Source: an uncultured Ardenticatenia bacterium
Lineage (GTDB): Bacteria; Chloroflexota; Anaerolineae; 4572-78; NAK82
Length of the DNA: 54,861 bases
Direction of reading: 5' to 3'
NCBI GenBank assembly: GCA_937127125.1
Contig: CAKZLO010000076.1
Span: 1 to 54,861 of the forward strand
Shown piece by piece: positions 19,228 to 36,847 of this stretch (position 1 is the first letter of the stretch; each line of letters begins with the position of its first letter). The notes beneath the pieces were generated by a model that was not told the origin of the DNA, made no database searches, and saw nothing but the letters and a program-made list of their open reading frames with translations. The translations under genes and the position numbers were made by a program.

Positions 19228-22200
19228 ATGTTGCAGCGCTGGGGACGAGCTGACCTTGCGGAGGATCATTTGGGGCAGGATCCAGCTGCGGAACCGAGAA
19301 CCGAGGGTCAAGGGCTGGTAGAGTTCGCGCTCATCCTTCCGTTGCTCCTCCTGTTGCTGTTGGGCATCGTGGAGGGAGCACGCATCACATGGGCTTTCGT
19401 AACGGTGCAGGAGGCAGCACGCGAGGCAGCGCGCTATGCCGTGTCCGGGCAACCATACAACCAGAATGGTGATCCATGGGCTTTCGGCGCCTCTCTCGCG
19501 GATGGCTACAACCTAGGGCTGTGTCTGCGAGGCATCGATGATTTTGGCAGTTGCGACACTGTAGACCCAACTGCAGCCGACGCGATCGATCGTGTTGAGG
19601 CGATCAGCAACGTAGCCATCCGCCATGCGGCCCAGCTGAATGTGGAACGTTATGCCATCACGTCCAGGGTGTACACGGCGACCGGCTACTACGATATGCC
19701 GCGCACGCTGGGTGTGCTGGTCATCGGCCAGCGCGATGAGACCGATGTCACAGGCACGCCGGACGACGCCGGGCGCGAAGGGCTCAACGTGTGGGTGCAG
19801 GTCTATTACAACGTAGAGATGGTTGATCCCATCTATGCTGGTCTGGTGAGCTGGATCACAGGCGGACAGAATTTCATCCGCGTGTTCGGATCGGCGCAAA
19901 TGCAAAACGAGGGTGTGGACGCTGCGCTGGGCAGCGTGCCACCGGTCGGCATTGCTACACCGGTGCCACCCCAAGGACCTGGAGGCGGCGCCCCCAGTGG
20001 CTGGCGGCCGATCATTATCAGCCCGGACGGGGTCACCTTCGAGGCAGGTCGGCCGATGCGGGTACGCATAGAGCAACACACCGCCGGCAACCATTACGAC
20101 ATTCACTTAGGTCCCGTGATTATTTGCAGCGATGTTGTCGCTAACAACTTTGGCATCGCTGAGCCAACCTGCCTTATCCCGCCCGACTTTCCGCCGGGGG
20201 AGAATTACGAGCTCTACTCTACCTTGCGCGGCGATACTACCAAGGTAGCTGGAGAAGTGTATGTCACAGTGACGCGCATCAGCCAGCCTACTTTGCTCAT
20301 CGCTGATGGCAATACCTGGCCAGCAGGCAGTCAGATTACTATTCAGGTGCGCAGCCACGATCCGAATCAGCGCTATGACATTTATTTCAGCGGTACACAC
20401 ATTGGTACCACTGAGGCGACAAACCCATATGGCGATGTGGGCTTCATCTGGCAGATCCCGAGCAACACACCGCCTCGCGAGCTGCCCAGCTTCTACGACG
20501 TCGAATCATTATTACAAGGTACCACCTCGCCGCGAGTTGCCCATACTTTCCTTTCGGTTACCACGCCACAGATCTTGGTACAGGGTGGCAACACTTGGCC
20601 AGCGGGGGTGATCTTGCGTGCCAACTTGCGTCGCCACGCACCCAATCGCAGCTACGAGGTTCGCTGCAACGGCGAGTCAGTTGGATCCTTTCTCACTGAC
20701 AGCGAAGGGCGCAGCATCGCCACTATCTTCTGCACCGTGCCAGCTACCTTTCCCGATACGGTGCCACCTAACGGCTATTACACCATTGTGTCATACGATA
20801 ACGGTATTCCTATCGGCCACGCCAATGTCACCATCTCCACGCCTACTGAACCTTACTTGAATGTTGTAGGTGGCTACGACTGGCCGGCCGGTAGTCCAAT
20901 CGAGATTCAGATGTTCAAGCATCTGCCCAATCGCAACTACCGTTTGTTCTTTGAAGACTGGATCGTGACGCCCTCAATCACCACCGATGATGCCGGTTAT
21001 GCTCAGACATCTTACCTCATTCCTATCACAGCCACGCAGGCCACTACCTATACCCTGCGCTCGTATGACATTGCCAGTGCACAAGCAGTAGCAACGCGAA
21101 CCCTTACCGTGCGCGCTGTGCCGCAGCTGACAGTGCTTGAAGGGAACATCGTGCAGCCTGGCACGCTCATCCACATCAACCTGAGAGGGCATGCTGCCTA
21201 CACAGTGTACAGCTTGTTCCTGGATGGCATTTTGATCGGCTCCATCCAAACCGATGGCAATGGCGAAGCCACTTTTGCCTATGACCTCGACCGGTTCAAT
21301 CGCATGGGTGGACCGTTCGACCTGGAATCCAGGCTGGGGGGTACACGCGCCGGGCACACGCAACTCTCCATTGTTGCTCCCGACCTGCAGGTGATGGGCA
21401 TCGAACTACCACCTAACCCAGTGTTCAATGTGCCGATCCCTATCACGGTCACTGTGCGCAACAGCTCGACTGTGACCGTGGCCGGAACCTATTTTGATAC
21501 TGACATCTATGTGGACCCGGCGCATGTACCCGATGTGATGGTGCCCTATCCGCCCGGTGACTTCAAGCTCTGGATCGACCAGCTGGAGCCTTTTGGCATT
21601 GCTGCATTGGTGCAGGAAGTGGTACTCTACGGTGGCGGTCAGCATCATATTTATGCGCGTACCAACACGTCGCAGTACATCTTGGAGCGCGACCGCGACA
21701 GTTTCGCTAACAATATGGTGCACGTGACCGTGCAGCCAACCACATGCGCCTCACGCATCGAGGAGGCACTGACCGACGATACACAACTGGACAGCGCATG
21801 GTCGCCTGGCTGGAATGCTGTCGCCTATGGCAATGCTAACGATACACCACCTACCGCCAGCCATACGCTTGCCAATGATGTGATTAGCTTGACCAGCGAA
21901 GGTAGCAGCCCCAATCCCAATCCTTCCACTGATGATGATCGAGGCGGCTACTACCTGGTGTATCAGCAGATAGCAGGCGATTTCGATGTGTCGGTGCGTT
22001 TGACCCAACAAGGCAATCTGCCCAACGGCACGTTAAATGGCTGGGCACGCTTCGGCCTAGAGGTGCGTGAGTCTACCAGCTCGACGGCGCGCAAGCTGTA
22101 CCTTATGCGTTCAAAGTCAAACGGCATCCAAGTTGGTCGCCGTACCAGCAATGGCGGCAGTATCAGCGCCAACACCATCCCTAACACCAGCGGGTTGAGC

Positions 22201-23862
22201 TTGCCTGTCTGGTTGCGCATTGTGCGCTATGGTAACGACTTCGCCCTCTACTATGCCACCACAACCAATGTACCTCCTTCCGGGGATGACTGGACGTATT
22301 TCAGTACTTTTAGCATCAGTATGAGCGATCCTGTGCTGGTGGGATTGGCCAATGCTTCGGCCAGTGACACCGCGGCCAATACAGTGCGCTTTGACAATTT
22401 TCGCCTGTGTCTGGATCCGACCAACCTGTCTGGCTGCGGTGAGGTATTGGAGCGTGACGGTCTGGTGGTGATTGACGCTACCAACCATGTGCAGAACGTG
22501 CCGCGCAGTTCGAAACAGTGGCAGGAGGTGACCAAGGGTGGTTATCGTGTGATGCAGGCGCTGCCGGATAGCGGCAGCACGATTGACTCCAACATCACGA
22601 CTACCAGCCCAGAGCTCCAGTATCAGGTCAATTTCGCCACGCCGGGAGACTACTATATCTGGGTTTACGGTGCCGGGCCGAACACCTCAGGCGACTCATT
22701 GCACATTGGGTTAAACGGCACAGTACAGAGTACCTCAAGCCAGATCGATCTGGACGACACCGACACGGTGAGATGGTCCAACACTCGCACCAATGGCACG
22801 CAAGCTATCCTCAGTGGCGTCTCGGCTGGGGTTAACTTGATCAATGTTTACATGCGCGAGGACGGGGTCTGGTTCTCCAAGATTCTGCTCACCACGGATC
22901 CCAACTTCGTGCCTACCAAGCCGATGGCCCAATCTGCCTGCAGCGTCACCGCACCGCCAGATCCTTATCCGCCTGGCCTGATGATCTGTACACCACCCAA
23001 CGCGCCACTCTTGAAGAATGGCAACTTCGAGCAGAACCCTGGTTACCAGACTGCTTGGGTCTATCCACCTTCCGGGGTGAACATCTCGGCCAACAATCCG
23101 CACAGCGGCAGCCTGGGGTTGCGCATGGCCAGCTATCAGACGGGCAGTGGTTTCACGCGCCCATGGTGTTACCAGGAATTCACCATGCCAGATTGGATCA
23201 CCACCACGACAACGATGAAGCTGCGCTTGTGGAAGAGTGTCAATTACATGAACACACGTGAGATTACTGACACTCTGCAGGTTGTGCTGCGCACGACCGG
23301 TATCACCCCTACTCTTGTTTCGACGCCGACTGTCATCGCACGCGGCGACGAGGGATGCAGCAGTGTTTGTGACGAGCATTATCAAGGTGAATGGGATTTG
23401 GCCCGGGCTATGCGAGAGTCTGGGCAAAACCCTGTCAACTATGCCGGTCAGCCGCTGCAACTCTACTTCTACGATGACTCGAACTCGCTTGATTGTACCA
23501 ACTTCGGACCGACATGCTTCAACACCGAATTCTACTTGGACGACATATCGCTGGAAGTATGCACCACACAACCGCTGCCACCGCTAGATGAGACCAAGGC
23601 AGTGATTCGCGGCAACCTGCGTATCATCCAGAACGGACAGCGCATCCAGAAGCAGGGAGTGCGTGTGTGGGCCTACCGACAGAACGGTGCAATGTTGACC
23701 ACCTATAGCATTCACGACTCGACCTATGGCTTCTATAACATTGAGCCGGGCGAATACGTGATCTATGCCGAATGGTGGGACGGCGCCGACCTGTACAACG
23801 CACTGACGACCAAACGCGTCAGTGCCGGCATACAATACTGGGTAAATCTGGACTTATATTGA
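19228..23862 (+). CDS. giant TadE-headed multidomain surface protein
   Basis: This 1544-residue protein begins like a TadE-type pseudopilin: EGQGLVEFALILPLLLLLLLG then VEGARITWAFVTVQEAAREA, a membrane helix followed by an amphipathic helix. Ordinary TadE proteins have about 150-200 residues. Here about 1300 more follow. Residues 255-715 hold five Ig-like repeats of 90-95 residues with a W-P-A-G anchor; 716-840 look like a CARDB domain (VRNSSTVTVAGTYFDTDIYV). Residues 843-1065 resemble a DUF1349/LamG-type jelly roll, 1072-1230 a CBM-like domain (ERDGLVVIDATNHV), and 1255-1445 another jelly roll. Residues 1455-1544 form a prealbumin-like fold ending YWVNLDLY. The exported part is probably an adhesin. 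It is the first gene of the locus; domain names are from pattern recognition only. Confidence 0.85.
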   Translation: MLQRWGRADLAEDHLGQDPAAEPRTEGQGLVEFALILPLLLLLLLGIVEGARITWAFVTVQEAAREAARYAVSGQPYNQNGDPWAFGASLADGYNLGLCLRGIDDFGSCDTVDPTAADAIDRVEAISNVAIRHAAQLNVERYAITSRVYTATGYYDMPRTLGVLVIGQRDETDVTGTPDDAGREGLNVWVQVYYNVEMVDPIYAGLVSWITGGQNFIRVFGSAQMQNEGVDAALGSVPPVGIATPVPPQGPGGGAPSGWRPIIISPDGVTFEAGRPMRVRIEQHTAGNHYDIHLGPVIICSDVVANNFGIAEPTCLIPPDFPPGENYELYSTLRGDTTKVAGEVYVTVTRISQPTLLIADGNTWPAGSQITIQVRSHDPNQRYDIYFSGTHIGTTEATNPYGDVGFIWQIPSNTPPRELPSFYDVESLLQGTTSPRVAHTFLSVTTPQILVQGGNTWPAGVILRANLRRHAPNRSYEVRCNGESVGSFLTDSEGRSIATIFCTVPATFPDTVPPNGYYTIVSYDNGIPIGHANVTISTPTEPYLNVVGGYDWPAGSPIEIQMFKHLPNRNYRLFFEDWIVTPSITTDDAGYAQTSYLIPITATQATTYTLRSYDIASAQAVATRTLTVRAVPQLTVLEGNIVQPGTLIHINLRGHAAYTVYSLFLDGILIGSIQTDGNGEATFAYDLDRFNRMGGPFDLESRLGGTRAGHTQLSIVAPDLQVMGIELPPNPVFNVPIPITVTVRNSSTVTVAGTYFDTDIYVDPAHVPDVMVPYPPGDFKLWIDQLEPFGIAALVQEVVLYGGGQHHIYARTNTSQYILERDRDSFANNMVHVTVQPTTCASRIEEALTDDTQLDSAWSPGWNAVAYGNANDTPPTASHTLANDVISLTSEGSSPNPNPSTDDDRGGYYLVYQQIAGDFDVSVRLTQQGNLPNGTLNGWARFGLEVRESTSSTARKLYLMRSKSNGIQVGRRTSNGGSISANTIPNTSGLSLPVWLRIVRYGNDFALYYATTTNVPPSGDDWTYFSTFSISMSDPVLVGLANASASDTAANTVRFDNFRLCLDPTNLSGCGEVLERDGLVVIDATNHVQNVPRSSKQWQEVTKGGYRVMQALPDSGSTIDSNITTTSPELQYQVNFATPGDYYIWVYGAGPNTSGDSLHIGLNGTVQSTSSQIDLDDTDTVRWSNTRTNGTQAILSGVSAGVNLINVYMREDGVWFSKILLTTDPNFVPTKPMAQSACSVTAPPDPYPPGLMICTPPNAPLLKNGNFEQNPGYQTAWVYPPSGVNISANNPHSGSLGLRMASYQTGSGFTRPWCYQEFTMPDWITTTTTMKLRLWKSVNYMNTREITDTLQVVLRTTGITPTLVSTPTVIARGDEGCSSVCDEHYQGEWDLARAMRESGQNPVNYAGQPLQLYFYDDSNSLDCTNFGPTCFNTEFYLDDISLEVCTTQPLPPLDETKAVIRGNLRIIQNGQRIQKQGVRVWAYRQNGAMLTTYSIHDSTYGFYNIEPGEYVIYAEWWDGADLYNALTTKRVSAGIQYWVNLDLY
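20010..21370 (+). repeat. five tandem Ig-like domain repeats inside the giant TadE-headed gene
   Basis: The anchor codon for the Trp of the GGNTWPAGS-type motif falls at 20038 (Phe in repeat 1), 20317, 20596, 20881 and 21151 (Val in repeat 5). This gives periods of 279, 279, 285 and 270 nt. Each unit continues with a HxPNRxYxxxxxG pattern. The repeats are diverged at DNA level, so they are old duplications. Confidence 0.85.
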
Positions 23863-25463
23863 TGGACACGGTGAGATACTTTTGCCCTGAGGTGCAAGAT
23901 GAGCGCATGAGCTCCCACACACGGTGGCGCAGATTGGGCTGGCCGCTGGCATTGGGCCTGGCATTGACATTACTGCTCGCCCTGCCTTTGCTAGCTACGC
24001 GGCCAGATGACTTAGGCAACAGACCAATCAACCTCTCTAAGCGTGCTGAGCTGGGCCTCAAGTCGGCGGATGCTGACCTGAAGGCGAGCTCGGACGGCCA
24101 ATGGGTGGCAGCAGTGTGGAGCTTGGGCTACGACAACAAGCCAGATACTGCTCAGGTGGGACACATTATACTTAAGTCGGCCAACGTCATTACGGGTTGG
24201 GAGCGTCAGGTACACGTCTTCACGGCGACAGAGACCATGTGGGCACAGCAGCCGCGGCTGGCCTTTAATCCGCAGAAATCGTCACAGGTGGCAGTAGTGT
24301 GGGTGCTGTGCCGGTCCAAAGATGAACAATGTAACACGATCCAGATGGCAACCTGCGAACTAGCTGTTTTTCCGGACCACTGCCAAGCACCACAGACTGT
24401 GCACTATGACTATAAATTGGGCGCCACGCTCAGCAACCCAGACGTGGCCTATGATGGTAACGGGACGTTGCACTTTATCTGGCGCAAAGGAAGCGGCACC
24501 GACAACCAAGGGCTGTTCTATGAGCGCGCTTCTGAGGGACCGAATTTCCTTGAGCGGTCCTCCCAAAATTCATTTAACCCGTCTCTGGCGTGGAGCAGTA
24601 GTGGCAGTAGTGGTTGGTTGCATTTGGTCTGGTACGAGTACGCGGACATGGCATCTAAACGACGCATTATATACAGTCGTGATGACAACCTGAACAATAA
24701 CGCTTGGTCAGGTGTGCAATGCAACTGGAAGGCACCGGCCGGCTATCAATTTACTGGAGGTACAGGACAACCTTACATCAAGCCAGCCATCGCGGCAAGC
24801 GGCAACAATGTGTACCTGGCCTGGGATATGTGGCAGATCGGAGAGGATCCGGCAAACGCAGTCTTCCAGATGGCCTACGAATACAGTGCAGATAGTGGAA
24901 CAACCTGGTTGACCGGATGCAATGGTGGGGAGGGCAAGGCTTTACCTGGTGCCTACTTCGGCGATGCGCTGTATCCCTCGCCGCTGACAAGCATCTCGGA
25001 AGAGCAAACGCTTCGTCCCAGCATTGCGGTCAGCGGTAATCTGCCCGCTGCTGCCTGGCATACGCAGCAGAAAGTCGGTGAGAGCGACATATATGTCGTC
25101 GGTTATGTGAGCGGTATCAGCGTCAGCGGTGTCATCCAATGGCAGACGCCAGTGCTCATTACCAACGACCTGAACTATGATCCGGACGATGGTGTGCTGG
25201 AGGACGACTCCGCCAATCCCCATCTGGCCTTCTGGCCGGGCGGGCGGCTGCACCTTTTGCACATGGGGCTGTGGGGCGGTAACCCCTTCGATGAGAAGAG
25301 TGATTGGGATATCTACTATCGCGGCTATGTGATCACGGACACCTCCTCCTTCCCGACACCCCAACCGGGCACGCCCCCAGCCCCAACCCCAACATCCCGG
25401 CCGACCATCGACCCATATGACGATGTGCGCAAAGTGCGCCTGCCAGTGATTATGAAGAGATGA
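23862..25463 (+). CDS. secreted beta-propeller-like surface protein
   Basis: The 533-residue protein has an N-terminal signal or anchor segment WPLALGLALTLLLALPLLA. The body has repeated strands of the type SDGQWVAAVWSLG, PRLAFNPQKSSQVAVVWVL, PDVAYDGNGTLHFIWRKG and PAIAASGNNVYLAWD. These resemble sialidase/BNR-type propeller blades with the Asp-box-like rhythm, but catalytic residues of sialidases are not evident. A Pro/Thr linker and the tail VRLPVIMKR close it, a tail type common in secreted Chloroflexota proteins. Its ATG overlaps the stop of the giant TadE gene (TGATG), so translation is likely coupled. ATG at 23907 is an alternative start. The function is unknown; surface binding is an inference. 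Confidence 0.78.
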   Translation: MDTVRYFCPEVQDERMSSHTRWRRLGWPLALGLALTLLLALPLLATRPDDLGNRPINLSKRAELGLKSADADLKASSDGQWVAAVWSLGYDNKPDTAQVGHIILKSANVITGWERQVHVFTATETMWAQQPRLAFNPQKSSQVAVVWVLCRSKDEQCNTIQMATCELAVFPDHCQAPQTVHYDYKLGATLSNPDVAYDGNGTLHFIWRKGSGTDNQGLFYERASEGPNFLERSSQNSFNPSLAWSSSGSSGWLHLVWYEYADMASKRRIIYSRDDNLNNNAWSGVQCNWKAPAGYQFTGGTGQPYIKPAIAASGNNVYLAWDMWQIGEDPANAVFQMAYEYSADSGTTWLTGCNGGEGKALPGAYFGDALYPSPLTSISEEQTLRPSIAVSGNLPAAAWHTQQKVGESDIYVVGYVSGISVSGVIQWQTPVLITNDLNYDPDDGVLEDDSANPHLAFWPGGRLHLLHMGLWGGNPFDEKSDWDIYYRGYVITDTSSFPTPQPGTPPAPTPTSRPTIDPYDDVRKVRLPVIMKR

Positions 25464-26139: not shown

Positions 26140-26177
26140 CGATGCGCCACCGATGCGGACCAAGGGAGGAGATGAAG

Positions 26178-28505
26178 ATGATGAGAACGGTGTGTTCGTG
26201 CAATGGGGGAAGGAGAACTCAGGGCCAGAGCTTGGTCGAGATGGCTTTTATCACGCCGCTGCTGTTATTGATGTTTATTGGAGTACTCGAAGTCGGCTGG
26301 GCGTTGCGCAATCAGGTGGTACTGCAAAACGCCACGCGAGAGGCAGCACGATTCGCCGCGCGTGGGCGTTATCTCGACTTCAGCAAGACCAAAATTGACC
26401 AGATCGGCTATCCCTATGTCGTGCAGCATGAGCTGGACAGCATCGCGGGAGAGATCCCGCTCAGCGTTGCCGCCGGTAGTGCCAACAGTACCATCATTAT
26501 CTCCCATGTGTTGGTGGACACTGGAGAGTGTGGCAGTGGACCGCTGGATGACTTGGTACTTTCGCCTATTACGCCCGGCTATGGCCACTTTATGGCCACT
26601 TTTGGCCTGCCCCAGGCATCCCGTGTGGATTTCAACGCACTCGTGCGAGAGATGAAAGCCGAGAACGAGCGGTTCAACTGCGATCTACAGGCACGCAATC
26701 CGAGCGCTATCCCATCGGTCAACAGTGTCGTCGTCGTGGAGAGCTTTTTTCCCCACCAGCTGCTCGTCAACATACCGCTGGTCTCGCGCTTCATTGCTGA
26801 CCAAAATGGCATCATCTGGTTATACGCACGCACCATTATGCGCATAACTGCCGACGCGCGCGGCCATGTGCCCTCAGCCGGCGAGGGCTGCGAGGTCTAT
26901 CCCATCGCTCTGCACGCCTCGACGCTGGATGGTCGCCAGCCCGGCGATGCGCTGGGAGATATCTTCAATGGCGCTGGCAATGGCAACTTCGGCTGGCTAC
27001 GTTGGAGTCCTGCCCCGGGTAACAACAGTCAGACTTACCTGGTCGAAGAGCTGCGCAACCCACGGCTGTCTGTGAACTCCTTTGAAGATGCTAGCGATCC
27101 CAACGATCATACTCTCAATGCTGGCGACTGGATCTGGGGACTGACTGGCGTGGTCAACAGCAACGATGTGCGCGATGAACTGCAGCGACTGGTCGACAAT
27201 CGCGTGGAGCTGCGCATCCCGGTGTGGGACATCGCTGCTGGCACCGGTTCCAATCTCTCCTATCGCGTGGATCGTTTCGTGAAAATCAGACTTACCGGTT
27301 TCGATCTGGACCACAAGACTATTTCGGCCGCCTTCTTAGGCGAGGACCCAGATGCATGCCCGGACATCCCAGTGGGCGGTACGCCTACTCCCACGCCAAC
27401 TATCACACCCACTCCGACAATTACTCCGTCGCCCACTCCTACCAACACCCCTGCACCGCCGGCAGGATGTAATGATGCACTGCCTGCTGACCCAGGGACA
27501 ACCTGGACCAGCCTCGATATTGGTGGCGCGGCGGCTGGCTATACGGGTTCGGTGGGAGGTACTGTGTACGTGTGTGGATCGGGCAGCGGCGTTGGCGGCG
27601 CAAGCGACGCCTTCCGCTACGCGTATCGAGTCATCAACAGCCCGAACGTGGAGCTGGTGGCGCGCGTGAGCAGCTGGAATACCAATGGCAACGGAACAGC
27701 ACGAAGCGGCCTGATGATTCGTAACGCCACAGCGCCCAATTCGGCCCACGGAGCGAACGTACTCACCGGCAGCGGCGACTTGCGCAAGCTGTGGCGCGCT
27801 TCGGACGGAGCTGTCACCAGCGAGGTCAGCGGTGGAGGTGCGAGCACGCCAGTCTGGTTAAGGCTACTTAAGATCGGCAGAACCATAGTGGCTTATCGCT
27901 CCGCCGATGGCAGCAACTGGACGCGTATGGGTGCATTCGACTCAGTGTCACTGGGCGGCACCTACCTGGTCGGCATGGGGGTCAGTTCGCACAACAATGG
28001 TCAGTATGCCTACACTATCTTCGACTCAATAAGTGTCAACACGTCACCAACACCAGCCACACTTGCCTCGGACGGTTTCGAGAGTGGCAACACCAGTGGT
28101 GGCACAGGCTGGAGTGGCAACTGGAACTTGAGCAACAGCAACGTCGCGGTTGTCACTCAGGATACTCCGCGTAGCGGCAACTATCACCTGCGCTTCCGCG
28201 GCAATGTGGCCACGGCCACACGTGCAGTCGATCTATCCGACGTAGTAGGTGCGCGACTCCAGTTCTGGTGGCGCGCTCGAGACTTCGAAGCTGGGGACAG
28301 TGCTACCATCTCCGTCTACGATGGTGCCTGGCAGACCGTGTTGACGGTGACCAGTGCTCAATCTGATGATACTTACCGTTTGGCAAACGTCGATCTCTCG
28401 GGTTTTGCAATGACCAGCGGCTTCCAGCTGCGCGTCGAGGCCAATATCGACTCGAACAATGACTACTTCTATGTGGACGATGTGGCAATCACAGGATATC
28501 GCTGA
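26178..28505 (+). CDS. second TadE-headed protein with Thr/Pro stalk and binding modules
   Basis: The 775-residue protein begins with a TadE-type segment (GQSLVEMAFITPLLLLMFIG then EVGWALRNQVVLQNATREAARFA). A pilin-like region of about 340 residues follows, then a Thr/Pro stalk (about 398-430, TPTPTPTITP pattern). Next come a DUF1349-like jelly roll (about 432-626, with SGLMIRNA and TPVWLRLLKIGRTIVAYRS) and a second jelly roll (about 628-775, ASDGFESGNTSGGTGWSGNW). Three ATGs lie close together; I chose 26178 because GGAGGAG then lies 7 nt upstream. It is a smaller relative in design of the giant protein at 19228. Confidence 0.83.
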   Translation: MMRTVCSCNGGRRTQGQSLVEMAFITPLLLLMFIGVLEVGWALRNQVVLQNATREAARFAARGRYLDFSKTKIDQIGYPYVVQHELDSIAGEIPLSVAAGSANSTIIISHVLVDTGECGSGPLDDLVLSPITPGYGHFMATFGLPQASRVDFNALVREMKAENERFNCDLQARNPSAIPSVNSVVVVESFFPHQLLVNIPLVSRFIADQNGIIWLYARTIMRITADARGHVPSAGEGCEVYPIALHASTLDGRQPGDALGDIFNGAGNGNFGWLRWSPAPGNNSQTYLVEELRNPRLSVNSFEDASDPNDHTLNAGDWIWGLTGVVNSNDVRDELQRLVDNRVELRIPVWDIAAGTGSNLSYRVDRFVKIRLTGFDLDHKTISAAFLGEDPDACPDIPVGGTPTPTPTITPTPTITPSPTPTNTPAPPAGCNDALPADPGTTWTSLDIGGAAAGYTGSVGGTVYVCGSGSGVGGASDAFRYAYRVINSPNVELVARVSSWNTNGNGTARSGLMIRNATAPNSAHGANVLTGSGDLRKLWRASDGAVTSEVSGGGASTPVWLRLLKIGRTIVAYRSADGSNWTRMGAFDSVSLGGTYLVGMGVSSHNNGQYAYTIFDSISVNTSPTPATLASDGFESGNTSGGTGWSGNWNLSNSNVAVVTQDTPRSGNYHLRFRGNVATATRAVDLSDVVGARLQFWWRARDFEAGDSATISVYDGAWQTVLTVTSAQSDDTYRLANVDLSGFAMTSGFQLRVEANIDSNNDYFYVDDVAITGYR

Positions 28506-28557: not shown

Positions 28558-30837
28558 ATGTCTCATCCAGTGTGCACACAGGTAGTACCTACCCCTGCTC
28601 CGGGTACATCGACACAGTCTGGCCAGAGCTTGGTCCTGCTGGCAGTTATCTTCATGGGGTTGCTTGCATTACTGGGGCTCGCGCTCGATCTGGGGCTGCT
28701 GTACATCGAGCGCATCCACATGAAGCGGGCTGTTGACGCGGCGACGCTGGCTGGCGTTGTAGAGCTGCCGGATGAAGAACAGGCGATGCGGCGCGCTATT
28801 GAATACCTGCGCATGAATGGTTACAATGTTGGCTATGACGTGAACGTGATGGTGCTGGGCTGCACGCGTGGTAATCCAACAGCGCAGATTACCACACTCA
28901 GCAACCGTGCTACCCCATATGAGTACATCAGCGCCACGGTCAACCCACCGCGCGCTACGTTTCTGCTCGATACGTACTCATTCCAGTCACAACCACGCCA
29001 GAGCAGCGATTGTGGGCGCTTTGGCGGCAACACAGCGACTGGTACTTCTAACAAGATCGCCATCACCGGCACGGTGACCGTGCCAATGAATTTTATGCAG
29101 TTCTTCGGCTTTCGCTCAGTGCCGGCACAGGATAGCGCGATAGCCCAGAACATCACCAACTTGGACATCGCCGTTGTCTTTGATCACTCCGGATCGATGC
29201 AAGGCGATACAATCTGTTATAATTGCTGGAACGAGACAACCAACGACACTGTTAACTATCCATTCCCCACCAATGGTACGTACAATCCTATCTCCTACAC
29301 GCTGGTGCTCAGTCGTAACCTGTGTAGCGCTACACCAGAGGACTATGTGGATAGCAACGGGCGCCGCTATGTGATCATCGAGGCAGAGCTGTACTCGCGC
29401 AACAATTCCAGCTACTACCGCGAGACGCGTCAGACAGGGATTGGCTACTGGGCACTACAGCGTGGTACCACTGGCTCCAATCGTAGTTCGAGCGTAGAGG
29501 GTAACCGTTCTGCCCACGTAGCACATCATCCATACTGGACGTATGGTCAGCCGTCGCCCCCGGCACCATTGCTTGGACGTTTCTATACGCTGCAGGACGC
29601 ACAGCGAGATGTGTCGCCGCGCCTCGAGTACGACTTTCGCGTCGGCTGGTCTGGCACGGCCTATATCTGGTTGCGGGTGCAGGGCGGCGGTGCGCAATCC
29701 TTCTGGGTGAACCTGGTGAATGGCCAATACTATCGTGATCCCAGCAAGATCTACTGGGCGGTGGACAGCAACCCACCGGTGGAGAACGGCGCTGCTAGCG
29801 CCTGCAATACCACGTATGACTACGGCGGCTCCGCCAGCTGCGCAGGCAGATGGAACTGGATCCGCATTGGCTCCTTCAGCGTCATCACTGGTTCGTTGCA
29901 CACATTGAAGATATGGGCGGGCAGTCCGGGCTACGAGATCGATAAAATTGTGATCACCAACGATAGCCGCACCGATTACAGCCAGATCGGACCGCTCACT
30001 TACGACTCAAATCGTGGTCGGCCGGCGACTGTCGGCTCGGCGCGTGCTGGTGCTTGCGATCCATGCAACCCGATCTATGGCCTGACGGTTGATCCGAGTG
30101 ACTGCACTACGCCCTATTACCTGGTCACCACACGCACTAACCGCCTGGCCGACGATTTGTTCAGCGACTTTGAACCGCTGCGCACCTCACAGGAAGCGAT
30201 CAAGCGTTTCGTGCAAAAGCTTGATCCACGATCCGATCAAGTCGGGTTTGTTGGCTTTAATGAGGAACCAAGGCCACGTACCGAGCTGGCCTGCGTCCGG
30301 CGTTATGGTCGGGCGTGCTACGACCCTCTGGTGCAGAATCCACCTATTAGTTACACGCAAATTCTGCAAACCATTGAGAGCCAGACAGCAAACGGTGCCA
30401 CCGACATAGCCGACGCAATGCGCAATGGACTTGAGGTGTTGGGCATCAATGTCGACAACCGGCCCGGGGTGGATAACCTGTGCGATGGATCAACCTTTTC
30501 GGCCTGCGGACGCGGCGGCGCGGCCAAGCGCGTGATGATCTTATTGACCGATGGTTCGCCCAACGATAACCCGGGCGGTGCGTGCGACGATGACCCCAGC
30601 CTGTGGCCCTACAATAATGACCCCGACTTTGACTGTGTGATGTACTATGCCAAGAAAGCACGTCAAACGGGCACCGTGATTTACACCATTGGTCTGGGCA
30701 ATGGTGTGATTCCCGAATTGCTCCAGGCGGTCGCTGAGGAGACGCAGGGCACCTATTATTTTGCGCCCTCGCCCAAAGACTTGGATAACATATTTGACCA
30801 GATTCTGTCCAATATCTATGTGCGGTTGATCAAATGA
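28558..30837 (+). CDS. TadG-like protein with a von Willebrand A domain split by a large insertion
   Basis: The 759-residue protein has a TadE/TadG-type N terminus (GQSLVLLAVIFMGLLALLGL, then YIERIHMKRAVDAATLAG). Its vWA domain begins with the metal-site motif DHSGSM (D209). Instead of the first helix, about 315 residues follow, including a CBM6-like stretch starting YVIIEAELYSR and ending KIWAGSPGYEIDKIVI. The vWA then resumes near residue 539 (EPLRTSQEAIKRF), with GATDI and the third metal-site motif MILLTDGS. Ordinary TadG proteins carry a continuous vWA. The start at 28558 has GAGG 6 nt upstream; the frame is open earlier within the preceding gene. Confidence 0.85.
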   Translation: MSHPVCTQVVPTPAPGTSTQSGQSLVLLAVIFMGLLALLGLALDLGLLYIERIHMKRAVDAATLAGVVELPDEEQAMRRAIEYLRMNGYNVGYDVNVMVLGCTRGNPTAQITTLSNRATPYEYISATVNPPRATFLLDTYSFQSQPRQSSDCGRFGGNTATGTSNKIAITGTVTVPMNFMQFFGFRSVPAQDSAIAQNITNLDIAVVFDHSGSMQGDTICYNCWNETTNDTVNYPFPTNGTYNPISYTLVLSRNLCSATPEDYVDSNGRRYVIIEAELYSRNNSSYYRETRQTGIGYWALQRGTTGSNRSSSVEGNRSAHVAHHPYWTYGQPSPPAPLLGRFYTLQDAQRDVSPRLEYDFRVGWSGTAYIWLRVQGGGAQSFWVNLVNGQYYRDPSKIYWAVDSNPPVENGAASACNTTYDYGGSASCAGRWNWIRIGSFSVITGSLHTLKIWAGSPGYEIDKIVITNDSRTDYSQIGPLTYDSNRGRPATVGSARAGACDPCNPIYGLTVDPSDCTTPYYLVTTRTNRLADDLFSDFEPLRTSQEAIKRFVQKLDPRSDQVGFVGFNEEPRPRTELACVRRYGRACYDPLVQNPPISYTQILQTIESQTANGATDIADAMRNGLEVLGINVDNRPGVDNLCDGSTFSACGRGGAAKRVMILLTDGSPNDNPGGACDDDPSLWPYNNDPDFDCVMYYAKKARQTGTVIYTIGLGNGVIPELLQAVAEETQGTYYFAPSPKDLDNIFDQILSNIYVRLIK

Positions 30838-30958: not shown

Positions 30959-31008
30959 TATGGTAAGTTACCAGCCACTATTCTTTGCACCGGGAGGGAG
31001 GTAATCCC

Positions 31009-32076
31009 ATGCGACGCGGCGGTCTCTTAATCTTGCTCGGCCTGATCTTGGCCATTGGTGCAGCGGTCATTGTGTTGATGTTCATGATGCAGCAGCAACC
31101 CCCACCACCGACACAGCCCGTACCCCCTGGTGTGCCAGAGGCACAGCCGACGGGCGTCCCAACACAAAAGGTATGGGTTGCGCTGCAACCGATCAAGCGC
31201 GGCGGTGAGTTTATAGAAGGTACGTTGGGTCTGCGTGATTGGCCGACCACCAACGTGCCGCCGGATGTCATTGGTGATGCTGCCGAGACCATCGGGCGTG
31301 TGGCAGCAATAGATATTGTGCAGGGAATGCCCATCCTGCGCAGCATGCTAGCCGAGAAGGGGGCTGCCGGCCAGGCTGCTATGCAAATACCACCCGGCCG
31401 CGTGGCAGTCGCCTTTCCCATTGATGAACAGTCTAGTGTCGCCTATGCCATTCAGCCGGGTGACTACGTAGACGTGCTTATTATGGCCTCCTTCATTGAC
31501 TTGGATCCGGAGTTCCAGACCAAGCGACCCAATTACGTTCAGTTCTTCACGACCCGAACGGATAAGGAAACCGGGGAGACTTCTTTCAACCTTCTTGAAA
31601 GGACGGAAGAAGGCCGTTTTGAGCGCCCGCCCGGGTTGCCGCCTGAGATTTCAGGTGCCATTGTCTATCCTCGGGAGGAACAGCGACCGCGCCGTGTGGC
31701 GCAGCTGACAGTCCCGGCAGCTAAGGTGCTTCGCGTTGGCCCGTGGATCGAGATGCCGACACCGACGCCACCAAGCGGTGCAGAGGAAGCAGCGCAACCA
31801 CAGCCACCTCCTCTGCCCAGAATTGTCACGCTGGCGGTCGATCCACAGGACGCGCTGGTCTTGCTCTGGGCGCGCAAGTCCGAGATGTACATGGAGCTGG
31901 CGCTGCGGGCATCAGGAGATGAAAACGCGCGTTATCAGCCAGAGGCGGTCACGCTTCAGTACATGCTGGCACGCTTCCAAATCTCGGTGCCACCTAAGCT
32001 GGAATACGGTTTCGAACGCGAGGCATATATGCAACCAGTTCAACCAATTGCTACACCACAACCTATGGGACAGTAG
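31009..32076 (+). CDS. cpaB: Flp pilus assembly protein CpaB (RcpC)
   Basis: The 355-residue protein has an N-terminal membrane anchor (LLILLGLILAIGAAVIVLMF), a Pro-rich linker and a SAF domain (about 50-125) with VALQPIKRGGEFI. The RcpC/CpaB domain follows, with RVAVAFPIDEQSSVAYAIQP and GDYVDVLIMA. In Gram-negative bacteria CpaB works with the secretin at the outer membrane; here no secretin gene is present. The start at ATG 31009 is preceded by GGGAGGGAGG. It opens the machinery half of the locus. Confidence 0.9.
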   Translation: MRRGGLLILLGLILAIGAAVIVLMFMMQQQPPPPTQPVPPGVPEAQPTGVPTQKVWVALQPIKRGGEFIEGTLGLRDWPTTNVPPDVIGDAAETIGRVAAIDIVQGMPILRSMLAEKGAAGQAAMQIPPGRVAVAFPIDEQSSVAYAIQPGDYVDVLIMASFIDLDPEFQTKRPNYVQFFTTRTDKETGETSFNLLERTEEGRFERPPGLPPEISGAIVYPREEQRPRRVAQLTVPAAKVLRVGPWIEMPTPTPPSGAEEAAQPQPPPLPRIVTLAVDPQDALVLLWARKSEMYMELALRASGDENARYQPEAVTLQYMLARFQISVPPKLEYGFEREAYMQPVQPIATPQPMGQ

Positions 32077-32151: not shown

Positions 32152-33423
32152 ATGCCAGATGCAGCTAGCGAGACCCAGAAGATACGTGTGCTCATTGTGG
32201 ACGACATTCCGGAGACGCGTGAGAACCTCCGCAAGCTGCTTTTCTTCGAGCCAGACATCGAGGTAGTGGGTGCAGCTACTAGCGGCGAGGAGAGTATCGC
32301 GCTGGCTGGGCAGCTTAAACCTGACATCGTGTTGATGGACATCAACATGCCAGGTATCGATGGCATCACTGCCACTGAGATGATCACGCAACAGCTGCCC
32401 TCTGTCCAGGTCATCATGATGTCGGTGCAAGGTGAAACCGACTACTTACGCCGCTCTATGCAGGCGGGTGCACGTGAGTTTCTCGTCAAACCATTCAGCA
32501 GCGAGGACTTGGTAGTAGCTATCCGACGCACCTACCAACTTGGACGTAAGCGCCCTACAAAGACGCTATCCGAGCCGGGGCCACCAGTGCCACCTTCTTC
32601 ACCCGGCAGAGATGGCTCAGGGGCATCTGTGGGCCATATTCTCACTGTGTTCAGTCCTAAGGGTGGCACCGGCTGTAGCACGCTGGCGATCAATCTGGCT
32701 GTCGCGCTGGCACAACAGAAACAGGGCAATAAGGTGGCACTGGTAGATGCCTCTCTTCAGTTTGGCGATATAGCCGTGCTGCTTAACTTGCAGGTCAGCC
32801 GCAGTATAGTGGATCTGGTGCCACATATTGACGAACTGGATGATGAGTTGCTGGAAACGGTATTGGTAAAGCATGGTTCGGGGGTGAAGGCACTGCTGGC
32901 GCCACCTCGCCCCGAATTGGCCGATCAGGTAAGCCCAACTCTGGTAGAGAAGGTTCTGACCGGCTTGCGCAACCTGATGTCATATGTCGTGGTGGATACT
33001 AGCAGTGTTGTCAGCGACATCACCTTAACAGCACTAGACGCAGCGGACCGCATCGTGTTGGTGACGACACCAGACATACCTTCCATCAAGGACGCCAAGC
33101 TTTTCTTCGAAGTCGCTGATGCTCTCGAGTATCCATCAAGCAAGACGCTGCTGGTCCTGAACAAGAGTGATCCGCACAGCGGCATCCGGGCTGAGGACAT
33201 TCAGGCGAGCATCAAGCACCCTGTCGCGGCGCAGCTACCCTTGGATGAGCGCACGGCCACGCTGGCAGCCAATCACGGTGTGCCCTACGTGGTCGGTAAT
33301 ATGCGTACCACCAAGTTGGCACAGGCTACCGTGTCACTAGCGCAGTACGTCGTCAATGTGCTTGCGGGGAAGGAGGAAGCTGCTGCGCCGGTCAGGATAG
33401 GCACTGGTCGCCTGTCCTTGTAG
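32152..33423 (+). CDS. cpaE: CpaE/TadZ-type pilus localisation ATPase with complete receiver domain
   Basis: The 423-residue protein joins an N-terminal receiver domain to a MinD/ParA-like ATPase. The receiver keeps all key residues: D17, D18, phosphoacceptor D63, S91 and K113 in LVKPF. The ATPase has the deviant Walker A KGGTGCST (170-177), followed by VALVDASLQFGDIAVLL and an intact switch region VVVDTSSVVSD. CpaE/TadZ positions the Tad machine in the cell. In many members the receiver domain is degenerate; a complete one suggests phosphorylation control, possibly by a kinase elsewhere. It lies 75 bp after cpaB. Confidence 0.92.
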   Translation: MPDAASETQKIRVLIVDDIPETRENLRKLLFFEPDIEVVGAATSGEESIALAGQLKPDIVLMDINMPGIDGITATEMITQQLPSVQVIMMSVQGETDYLRRSMQAGAREFLVKPFSSEDLVVAIRRTYQLGRKRPTKTLSEPGPPVPPSSPGRDGSGASVGHILTVFSPKGGTGCSTLAINLAVALAQQKQGNKVALVDASLQFGDIAVLLNLQVSRSIVDLVPHIDELDDELLETVLVKHGSGVKALLAPPRPELADQVSPTLVEKVLTGLRNLMSYVVVDTSSVVSDITLTALDAADRIVLVTTPDIPSIKDAKLFFEVADALEYPSSKTLLVLNKSDPHSGIRAEDIQASIKHPVAAQLPLDERTATLAANHGVPYVVGNMRTTKLAQATVSLAQYVVNVLAGKEEAAAPVRIGTGRLSL

Positions 33424-33476: not shown

Positions 33477-34853
33477 ATGTCGCTCCTGAATCGTATCGAA
33501 AGAGGACGGCCGATCGGCGAGGCCCCAGCTCGTCTTCAAGAACTGCGTGTGCGCAGGGCAACAGCATTTCCAACGCAGCGTGACACTTTCTCAGAGCTGA
33601 AAGAGCGCATTCAGGACAGATTGATCTCCGAGCTCGATCCCTCAATGGACCTTTCGCGTACGGAGGAAGTGCGCCGCACGATCGAGACGATGTATGACCA
33701 GTACCTCATGCAAGAGGGCCTGATCTTGAGCCGGGTAGAACGCCAGCGGCTCTTTGAGCAGATCGTCGCCGAGATATTGGGTTATGGTCCGCTGGAGCCG
33801 TTCCTGCGAGATGATACGATCACTGAAATCATGGTGAACGGGCCGAACAAGATCTTCGTTGAGCGCAACGGTAAGATCGAACCCGTCAGCGTCACCTTCG
33901 AAAGTGAAGAACATCTCATGCGCATCATTGACCGCATTGTTTCGCCACTCGGTCGGCGCATTGACGAAAGCTCCCCAATGGTAGACGCACGCCTGCCCGA
34001 CGGCTCGCGCGTCAATGCGATCATACCGCCTCTGGCGCTCAACGGTCCGACGCTCACCATCCGTAAATTTGCCCGTAAGCCGCTCGCTGTGGAGGATTTG
34101 ATCCGTTTTGGCAGCATCACACCGGAAGCAATTGAGTTTCTGAAGGCGTGTGTCATTGCTCGCTTGAACATAATCGTGTCAGGAGGCACTGGCTCCGGTA
34201 AGACCACTTTCTTGAACATTCTGTCCGGTTTCATCCCCGGGGATGAGCGCATCGTCACGATCGAAAACGCGGCAGAATTGCAGCTGCGTCAGGAGCATGT
34301 GGTCACTCTCGAGTCGCGTCCGCCTAACATCGAAGGTAAGGGTGAGGTGACCATCCGTGACCTGGTGATCAACTCCTTGCGCATGCGCCCTGATCGCATC
34401 GTCGTGGGTGAGTGTCGCGGGGGCGAGGCACTTGATATGTTGCAAGCAATGAACACTGGCCACGATGGTAGCTTGACCACGTTGCACGCCAACAGCCCGC
34501 GTGACGCGCTCGCCCGTTTGGAGACTATGTGCTTGATGGCAGGTATGGACTTGCCGGCGCGTGCCATCCGCGAACAGATCGCGTCAGCTGTGGACCTAAT
34601 TATTCACCAAGAGCGTATGCGCGATGGCTCGCGCAAGGTCGTGCAGATCACCGAAGTACAGGGCATGGAAGGCGATGTGATTGTTTTGTCCGACATCTTT
34701 CAGTTCGAGCAGCAAGGTATTGAAAACGGGCGTGTTATTGGACGCTTGAAACCGACTGGCATCCGGCCGAAGTTCATCGAGAAAATCGAAGCAGCCAACA
34801 TTCATCTGCCACCGCAGATCTTCGGCGTGGCTGCTGGCATAAGAATGCGCTGA
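33477..34853 (+). CDS. tadA: pilus assembly ATPase TadA (CpaF)
   Basis: The 458-residue hexameric ATPase powers Tad pilus assembly. It has the N-terminal domain ending in LGYGPLEPFLRDDTITEIMV, Walker A GGTGSGKT (236-243), the Asp box ENAAELQL and the Walker B-like RPDRIVVGECRGGEALDML. The His box TGHDGSLTTLHANS and the CpaF-specific C terminus follow. GGAGGTGG lies just before the ATG. It is followed by tadB at 33 bp. Confidence 0.96.
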   Translation: MSLLNRIERGRPIGEAPARLQELRVRRATAFPTQRDTFSELKERIQDRLISELDPSMDLSRTEEVRRTIETMYDQYLMQEGLILSRVERQRLFEQIVAEILGYGPLEPFLRDDTITEIMVNGPNKIFVERNGKIEPVSVTFESEEHLMRIIDRIVSPLGRRIDESSPMVDARLPDGSRVNAIIPPLALNGPTLTIRKFARKPLAVEDLIRFGSITPEAIEFLKACVIARLNIIVSGGTGSGKTTFLNILSGFIPGDERIVTIENAAELQLRQEHVVTLESRPPNIEGKGEVTIRDLVINSLRMRPDRIVVGECRGGEALDMLQAMNTGHDGSLTTLHANSPRDALARLETMCLMAGMDLPARAIREQIASAVDLIIHQERMRDGSRKVVQITEVQGMEGDVIVLSDIFQFEQQGIENGRVIGRLKPTGIRPKFIEKIEAANIHLPPQIFGVAAGIRMR

Positions 34854-34886: not shown

Positions 34887-35852
34887 ATGAATATGATGAT
34901 GGCGATTGCGATTGCCTCGTTAGCCTTTGTGGTGGTGATAGGACTCTTCTTCGTGTTGGCACGCGCAGTTGGCCGAGGCGAGGGGGATCTCGAAAGCAGG
35001 CTGGATCAGTTCGTCGTGCGTCAGGTTTCTGAAGAGAGTCAACCTAGTGAACGTCAACCTTCGCGTTTGACTCAGAGCATCAACACTGCTGTGGCAGAGA
35101 GGCGCTTCGCGCGCAACATTGCCACTAACCTGGCACGTGCCAATCTTAAGCTGACAGTGGGTGAATACATGATCCTGCAGGTTGTCAGCGTGCTAGGCAC
35201 AGGGCTGCTCTTCTACCTGATTATGCACCAAAACCCGTTTCTGACGTTGGTCGGGTTGGTGATTGGTTACTTCTTGCCCGGCCTGTATGTCAAAATGCGG
35301 CAGCGCAAGCGCCTAAGAGATTTTAACAGCCAGCTGGGTGATGCCATTAATCTGTTGGCTAACGGTTTGCGCTCCGGTTACAGCTTGCTGCAAGCGATGG
35401 ACGCCGTGGCTAACGAGATGCCTCCACCAATCTCGGAGGAATTCCAGCGTGTGGTACGCGAGATCGGGCTGGGACTTTCCACCGAACGCGCTATGAATAA
35501 TATGTTGCGGCGCATCCCTTCTGATGACCTGGATCTGATGATCACAGCGATCAATGTGCAACACGAGGTGGGTGGCAACCTGGCAGAGATTCTGGAGACA
35601 ATCAGCTACACGATCCGTGAACGCGTGCGCATCAAGGGTGAGATTCGAGTGTTGACCTCACAGCAAATGATCTCTGGATACGTGATCTCGTTCTTGCCGA
35701 TTGGGTTAGGGCTGATCTTATTTGCGATGAACCCGACCTATATGGGGCGCATGTTTCAGGATGTATGTGGCATCGCGATGATGGCTGTAGGTGGGATCAT
35801 GATGGCTGCTGGTTTCTTCGCCATCCAAAAGATTGTGCACATTGAGGTGTAG
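34887..35852 (+). CDS. tadB: pilus assembly membrane protein TadB
   Basis: The 321-residue inner-membrane platform protein has an N-terminal membrane helix, two central helices (YMILQVVSVLGTGLLFYLIM region) and a T2SSF domain with LRSGYSLLQAMDAVANEMP. Two C-terminal helices end it (GYVISFLPIGLGLILFAMNP). TadB and TadC together form the base on which TadA acts. It is followed by tadC at 53 bp. Confidence 0.94.
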   Translation: MNMMMAIAIASLAFVVVIGLFFVLARAVGRGEGDLESRLDQFVVRQVSEESQPSERQPSRLTQSINTAVAERRFARNIATNLARANLKLTVGEYMILQVVSVLGTGLLFYLIMHQNPFLTLVGLVIGYFLPGLYVKMRQRKRLRDFNSQLGDAINLLANGLRSGYSLLQAMDAVANEMPPPISEEFQRVVREIGLGLSTERAMNNMLRRIPSDDLDLMITAINVQHEVGGNLAEILETISYTIRERVRIKGEIRVLTSQQMISGYVISFLPIGLGLILFAMNPTYMGRMFQDVCGIAMMAVGGIMMAAGFFAIQKIVHIEV

Positions 35853-35905: not shown

Positions 35906-36847
35906 ATGCCATTGCCAATTATTCTATTGGCTGCTGTGATGTTGAGTATGACGGCCGTGCTGATCTATATGGGACTTGCATCGACGTCGCCCCGTGGAGA
36001 TCAGGTGGCAGTGCGGTTGGAGGAATTCGCCAGCCGGTCGACCCCTCTAACGTTGGAAGAAATTGAGCTGTCGCAGCCCTTCAGTGAGCGCATTGTGCGG
36101 CCGATCCTGCGTGGGTTAGCTCAATTTGTCACGCGATTCACCCCTTCCAATACCCTCGAGTCCACAGCTCGTAACCTGGAGCTGGCAGGGCGACCGCACA
36201 ACTGGGGAGTGACTGAGTTTATGGGTCTGCGCGCTGGGGCCGCCCTGTTACTGGCCGTGTTCTTCTTCCTGTTGCTCAGCGTGGCCGGCCAGCCTATGCT
36301 TTTTCGGATTGGCAGCGTTATTTTGGGCGGCTTGTTGGGCTATCTGCTTCCGGGTATGTGGCTTAGTGGCAAGATTCGTCGCCGCCAACAGGAGATCATC
36401 AAAGCTATGCCGGACGCGCTTGACTTGTTGACCATCTGCGTGGAAGCCGGCTTAGGCTTTGATGCAGCAATGGCCAAAGTAGCCGAGAAGTGGGATAATG
36501 AGCTGAGTCGTGCGTTCGGCCGTGTCATCCAGGAGATCCGCTTGGGCAAACCGCGACGGGAGGCGCTGCGTGAGATGGACCGAACCACAGGCGTACCCGA
36601 CATCACCAGCTTTGTGGCGGCGATCATCCAGGCGGATCAGTTGGGTGTCAGCATTGCCAAGGTGATGCGTATCCAGTCAGAGCAGATGCGCATCAAGCGT
36701 CGCCAGCGCGCCGAGGAAAAAGCTCATCAGGCCCCGGTCAAGATGTTGTTCCCGTTGGTTTTCTTGATCTTCCCAGCCATCTACATCGTGTTGTTGGGCC
36801 CGGCAACACTGGTGGTCAAAGAGTCAGGGCTGCTGGGCGCTATGTGA
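35906..36847 (+). CDS. tadC: pilus assembly membrane protein TadC
   Basis: The 313-residue protein has the same architecture as TadB: an N-terminal helix, a central helix pair (ALLLAVFFFLLLSVAGQPML), a T2SSF domain with LDLLTICVEAGLGFDAAMAK, and a C-terminal helix (LVFLIFPAIYIVLLGPATLV). AAGGAGG precedes the ATG. It is the last Tad gene seen; the hairpin at 36864-36916 follows. Confidence 0.94.
   Translation: MPLPIILLAAVMLSMTAVLIYMGLASTSPRGDQVAVRLEEFASRSTPLTLEEIELSQPFSERIVRPILRGLAQFVTRFTPSNTLESTARNLELAGRPHNWGVTEFMGLRAGAALLLAVFFFLLLSVAGQPMLFRIGSVILGGLLGYLLPGMWLSGKIRRRQQEIIKAMPDALDLLTICVEAGLGFDAAMAKVAEKWDNELSRAFGRVIQEIRLGKPRREALREMDRTTGVPDITSFVAAIIQADQLGVSIAKVMRIQSEQMRIKRRQRAEEKAHQAPVKMLFPLVFLIFPAIYIVLLGPATLVVKESGLLGAM

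Follow-up and report, generated by a model that had tools for sequence, protein, structure and literature searches.

The window, a 54,861-nt stretch of DNA from an uncultured Ardenticatenia bacterium of the Chloroflexota (contig CAKZLO010000076.1, GCA_937127125.1), encodes a TadG-like minor pilin as part of a tad (Flp pilus) locus. In this protein, as sequence profiles and homologues support, strand 1 and helix 1 of one vWA domain are parted by a CBM6/35-like module. We favour, at a probability of roughly 0.6, a role for this protein as a TadG-type tip adhesin of the Tad pilus with two faces—a MIDAS vWA and a probable polysaccharide-binding module. Its reading frame runs for 759 codons without an internal stop, and one relative (L032) has an identical start and length. 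The protein and its parts are as follows:

28558-30837 (+): TadG-like minor pilin with split vWA, 759 aa (ORF translation, Pfam)
28621-28758 (+): N-terminal hydrophobic pilin-like helix, Tad PF13400, aa 22-67 (Pfam E 2.3e-6)
28924-29145 (+): Tad_C-like region, PF09977, aa 123-196 (Pfam E 0.003, below cut-off)
29161-29199 (+): vWA strand 1 and first MIDAS motif, LDIAVVFDHSGSM, aa 202-214 (splice tests, invariant residues)
29200-29361 (+): N-terminal linker, aa 215-268, with C220, C223 and C256 (conservation)
29362-29961 (+): CBM6/CBM35/GH115_C-like beta-sandwich module, aa 269-468 (Pfam, fold search with a model, conservation)
29962-30171 (+): C-terminal linker, aa 469-538, with C500, C503 and C516 (conservation)
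30172-30834 (+): remainder of the vWA from helix 1, aa 539-759 (Pfam, splice test)
30400-30402 (+): MIDAS second motif, T615 (invariant)
30550-30552 (+): MIDAS third motif, D665 (at least 90% conserved)

In the whole protein, the Pfam VWA profile covers residues 542-748 only, at profile positions 18-174 of 174; because the match begins at position 18, at helix 1, the C-terminal part has neither strand 1 nor the first metal motif. That partial match would suit a reading in which a truncated vWA makes up the C-terminal part, DHSGSM being coincidental or part of another domain, as would the absence of core closure from an AlphaFold model of residues 196-759 built from four sequences, a model whose confidence (pLDDT 37.6, pTM 0.30) is too low to judge closure. 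Splice tests in five proteins argue against it. When residues 196-214 were joined to 539-759, the VWA profile matched at full length (positions 1-174, 66.8 bits), whereas control splices with two different 19-residue stretches of this protein scored 51.5 and 51.2 bits and matched from position 16-17. Four distant relatives from other families of the class gained 14-17 bits in the same way: in three of them the spliced form scored 60.7, 57.6 and 53.9 bits against 45.3, 40.5 and 37.2 for the whole protein and now matched from position 1, and in the fourth the score rose from 28.3 to 42.6 bits (a gain of 14), with neither form matching from position 1.

Conservation and shorter homologues point the same way. 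Across the window protein and 28 homologues at 33-85% identity, D209, G212, S213, M214 and T615 are invariant and D665 is at least 90% conserved, and homologues that lack the module (L035-L038) have the same motif 24-44 residues ahead of helix 1; one genome (G348) encodes both forms, L019 with the module and L037 without it. Given the splice tests and the short homologues, we take the split to be real and the insert to lie between strand 1 and helix 1; the truncated-domain reading is strongly disfavoured and has almost no probability left. Closure of the vWA core is thus supported from sequence profiles only. The sequence-only reading had proposed that the domain breaks directly after DHSGSM (209-214) and resumes at about residue 539 with its later metal motifs, and in both respects it held; it was also right that an insert is present, but the length that it gave, about 315 residues, was slightly too short, the insert comprising residues 215-538, or 324 residues. 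In the same 29 sequences, the N-terminal Tad helix was matched by Pfam in 27 and Tad_C in 14.

Between the module and the vWA halves lie Cys-rich linkers of 54 residues on the N-terminal side and 70 on the C-terminal side. C256 and C500 are both missing in L018 and L015, L053 and L007 lack C500 but not C256, and C503 and C516 are both missing in L014 and L025; this co-loss, seen in few cases, suggests the pairs C256-C500 and C503-C516 as predicted disulfides, which would fasten the module at its base. At the position of the insert, relatives without the module have a Cys-rich loop of 24-90 residues, which in the short homologues includes a CxxC similar to that of the linker. Since such a loop is there, the module probably entered one that had already expanded.

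The sequence-only reading had also described a CBM6-like stretch in the insert, and profile and fold searches agree with it. GH115_C (PF17829) matched the isolated module (residues 266-475) at 25.9 bits, above the curated cut-off of 24.1, and residues 350-479 of the whole protein at 23.4 bits, slightly under it; it was matched in 8 of the 29 sequences of the homologue set, and Pfam listed no CBM6 or CBM35 match for either the whole protein or the isolated module. With a weak model of the module built from four sequences (pLDDT 52.7, pTM 0.61), Foldseek returned a GH115 enzyme (6nps) as its top match (E 1.8e-4), and VIA-align gave CBM35 3zm8 (Z 9.8), CBM6 2cdp (Z 9.3) and GH115 4zmh (Z 8.7). 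A profile of 20 modules gave a weak alignment (E 0.15) with 6nps that takes in the IEAE start of this enzyme. Pfam and the fold search of this low-confidence model point to a predicted beta-sandwich resembling CBM6, CBM35 and GH115_C. Within the module, E275, A276, E277, Y279, W298, P325, P354, Y358, R373, W432 and D462 are invariant; the EAE and the late Asp presumably resemble the structural calcium site of CBM6/CBM35, and at this model quality no ligand-site residues of those families could be identified. The module is under purifying selection, with a dN/dS of 0.045 against 0.043 for the vWA part, both rough values at high dS. Four relatives (L023, L025, L027 and L051) carry a further Cys-rich insertion within the module, of 99-115 residues as against 38 in the window protein, and therefore nesting goes one level deeper in family f3.

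Homologues both with and without the insert had been suggested as worth seeking, and both were found. In a 396-genome sample of the class, insert-bearing homologues occur in eight families (f1, f2, f3, f7, f12, f15, f50 and f54); within the order, the insert form is present in 19 of 25 genomes, including 5/5 of the most complete. Outside the class, one genus only was matched in the phylum sample. Proteins from one genus of another class (L057-L061) carry the module; the three examined are kelch-type, and in them the module lies close to the C-terminus. The nearest named relatives come from metagenome assemblies labelled Ardenticatenia, Anaerolineae and Chloroflexi. Among viral contigs, one vWA was found at 27% identity, and a PHROGs search gave no useful match. 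Plasmid vWA proteins (Sinorhizobium, Sagittula) were considered as TadG comparisons and rejected because the two examined belong to clusters of MoxR/DUF58/BatD type rather than to tad loci.

In a tree of vWA cores, a branch with support 91/93 sets the 27 rows of insert-bearing proteins apart from the rest, with a single change needed, and the form with a short Cys loop adjoins their clade; L131 and L141-L143 were not placed, and L050, which was trimmed wrongly and forms a long branch, is to be disregarded. This topology fits a single gain of the module, with an alternative root or a loss as other possibilities. Three Tad-vWA proteins of 917-1020 aa (L048-L050) have another long stretch after DxSxSM, in which no Pfam domain was found, and their VWA matches again start at about helix 1. 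In two of them, from other families (L048-L049), a different stretch of 150-195 residues occupies the same site, and for that reason the strand 1-helix 1 site seems to be one where insertions readily arise.

The window protein has a Tad helix, a vWA with complete MIDAS and a place in a tad locus beside TadE, which are the features of a TadG-type (CpaL-like) protein. The other recognisable genes of the locus are:

19228-23862 (+): TadE-like minor pilin, 1544 aa, with GH115_C at aa 1075-1223 and weak DUF1349 (TadE 9e-14, GH115_C 2.5e-13)
26142-28505 (+): TadE-like minor pilin, 787 aa, weak DUF1349 (Pfam; adjacent in relatives)
30985-32076 (+): RcpC/CpaB (Pfam, relatives)
32152-33423 (+): TadZ/CpaE-like, receiver and ParA-like ATPase (Pfam, relatives)
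33477-34853 (+): TadA secretion ATPase, T2SSE (Pfam E 7.5e-67)
34887-35852 (+): TadB-like, T2SSF (Pfam)
35906-36847 (+): TadC-like, T2SSF (Pfam)

Relatives keep TadE beside TadG, and many also keep RcpC. By eye, several segments similar to the GH115_C module lie ahead of aa 1075-1223 in the 1544-aa protein; in the 787-aa pilin, a linker rich in Pro and Thr accompanies a long C-terminal region with the weak DUF1349 match. A 563-aa protein upstream of the minor pilins (23772-25463, +), without a Pfam match, is kept in L032-L034. None of the window's proteins was recognisable as a major pilin, and Flp-like matches elsewhere in the genome fell under the family's cut-off. The same genome has a second tad-like locus on contig C5 (G000; L046, L092 and L093), with its own TadA and an Flp-like match, which encodes a 372-aa Tad protein without a vWA.

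The tad locus, which the sequence-only reading had passed over, suggests a role for the split-vWA protein, and the split layout shared by many relatives suggests a two-part adhesin. As a TadG-type minor pilin, it would most likely sit at the tip of the Tad (Flp) pilus, anchored in the fibre by its N-terminal hydrophobic helix, and would expose a vWA with complete MIDAS whose strand 1-helix 1 loop carries the module on two Cys-rich stalks. The module would probably bind polysaccharide and the vWA metal site a second ligand, probably protein, such that the tip may adhere through both faces. The split, the fold matches, the tad context, the second GH115_C in the locus, the presence in 19/25 genomes, the clade at 91/93 and the dN/dS values favour this tip adhesin; against it, ligand-site residues could not be identified, a GH115_C fold need not bind sugar, the models are poor (pLDDT 37.6 and 52.7), and the window shows no recognisable major pilin.

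Rather unlikely, though carrying some weight, is an account in which the module has a structural role without binding sugar: as a stiff arm or spacer it would shield the metal site or affect its shape, or it would dock partner minor pilins. RrgA, GBS104, Mfa5 and PilB do have arms flanking the MIDAS (PMC7835359, PMC8179133), the conserved Cys in the linkers suggest rigidity, and no binding-site signature was identified in the module; however, the folds matched are mostly carbohydrate-binding modules, and the second GH115_C lies on another minor pilin of the locus, outside any vWA. Alternatively, sugar binding by the module may be combined with a sensory vWA: a ligand or a force acting on the module would alter the vWA and so report contact with a surface, as has been suggested for PilY1 and CpaL. 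The insert does sit in the loop that holds DxSxS, the linkers are Cys-rich, and the PilY1 vWA is reported to be mechanosensitive and disulfide-dependent (as summarised in PMC12607857), but coupling of the sugar module to the metal site is speculation and the long linkers may decouple the two; we regard this sensor as improbable. The sequence-only reading had placed the possible ligand-binding module beside the metal site and raised the coupling of sugar and protein binding; with linkers of 54 and 70 residues in between, and with the CpaL insert predicted to point away from the MIDAS (PMC12607857), such closeness in space would be conjectural. More improbable still is that a sugar module in the MIDAS loop, once occupied or pulled, switches the vWA metal site and lets the tip sense polysaccharide surfaces.

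The two-faced tip adhesin has partial precedents, as split vWA domains in pilus adhesins (CpaL, RrgA, Mfa5) and lectin modules on minor pilins are already known. TadG-type pilins have been proposed as the backbone of the Tad tip complex, presenting a distal module (PMC12075869), and tip models for TadG/CpaL exist (PMC12607857, PMC12075869). The closest likeness is to CpaL of Caulobacter crescentus, a TadG orthologue whose vWA is predicted to be split by a beta-rich insert that points away from the MIDAS (PMC12607857). Both proteins have a pilin-like N-terminus, a Tad pilus, a two-segment MIDAS vWA and, following its first MIDAS motif, a beta-rich insert (PMC12607857), and the inserts look topologically equivalent, judging from published residue numbers rather than the CpaL sequence; the CpaL insert, however, consists of two beta-barrels of six strands each, for which Dali gave no strong match, whereas ours is CBM6/35/GH115_C-like with Cys-rich linkers. 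RrgA, GBS104 and Mfa5, which belong to other pilus types, likewise have a MIDAS vWA with inserted subdomains, in their case at the pilus tip (PMC7835359), but their large ARM2, for which no CBM fold is described, is inserted between strand 4 and helix 4, a position different from the strand 1-helix 1 site located by the splice test.

In a literature search of incomplete coverage, no report of a Tad pilin whose MIDAS loop harbours a CBM-like module came to light. Tad pilus tips are thought to be modular, and few of their ligands are known; the CBM-like module conserved across families of one class, set at the metal loop of a TadG-type vWA, offers a concrete ligand hypothesis, polysaccharide. 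The short loop, the Cys-rich loop and the module also form a natural series for how a vWA tolerates or uses an insert at its ligand face.

Similar parts are combined differently elsewhere. In the type IV pili of S. sanguinis, a vWA and a lectin module reach the tip on the modular minor pilins PilB and PilC (PMC8179133), but there the two are appended to separate proteins, whereas in the window protein the modules are nested. The RTX adhesin AhLap of Aeromonas hydrophila has as ligand-binding domains a CBM and a vWFA, of which the latter is in turn split by an insert, and is a precedent for ligand-binding modules emerging from split domains (PMC12077191); its CBM, however, emerges from an Ig-like split domain rather than the vWFA, and no pilus is involved. 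Finally, the window module shares a sequence match (PF17829) and a fold match with the GH115 C-terminal domain, CBM35 and CBM6, but differs from them in being nested in a pilin vWA, with an extra variable loop and no attached enzyme.
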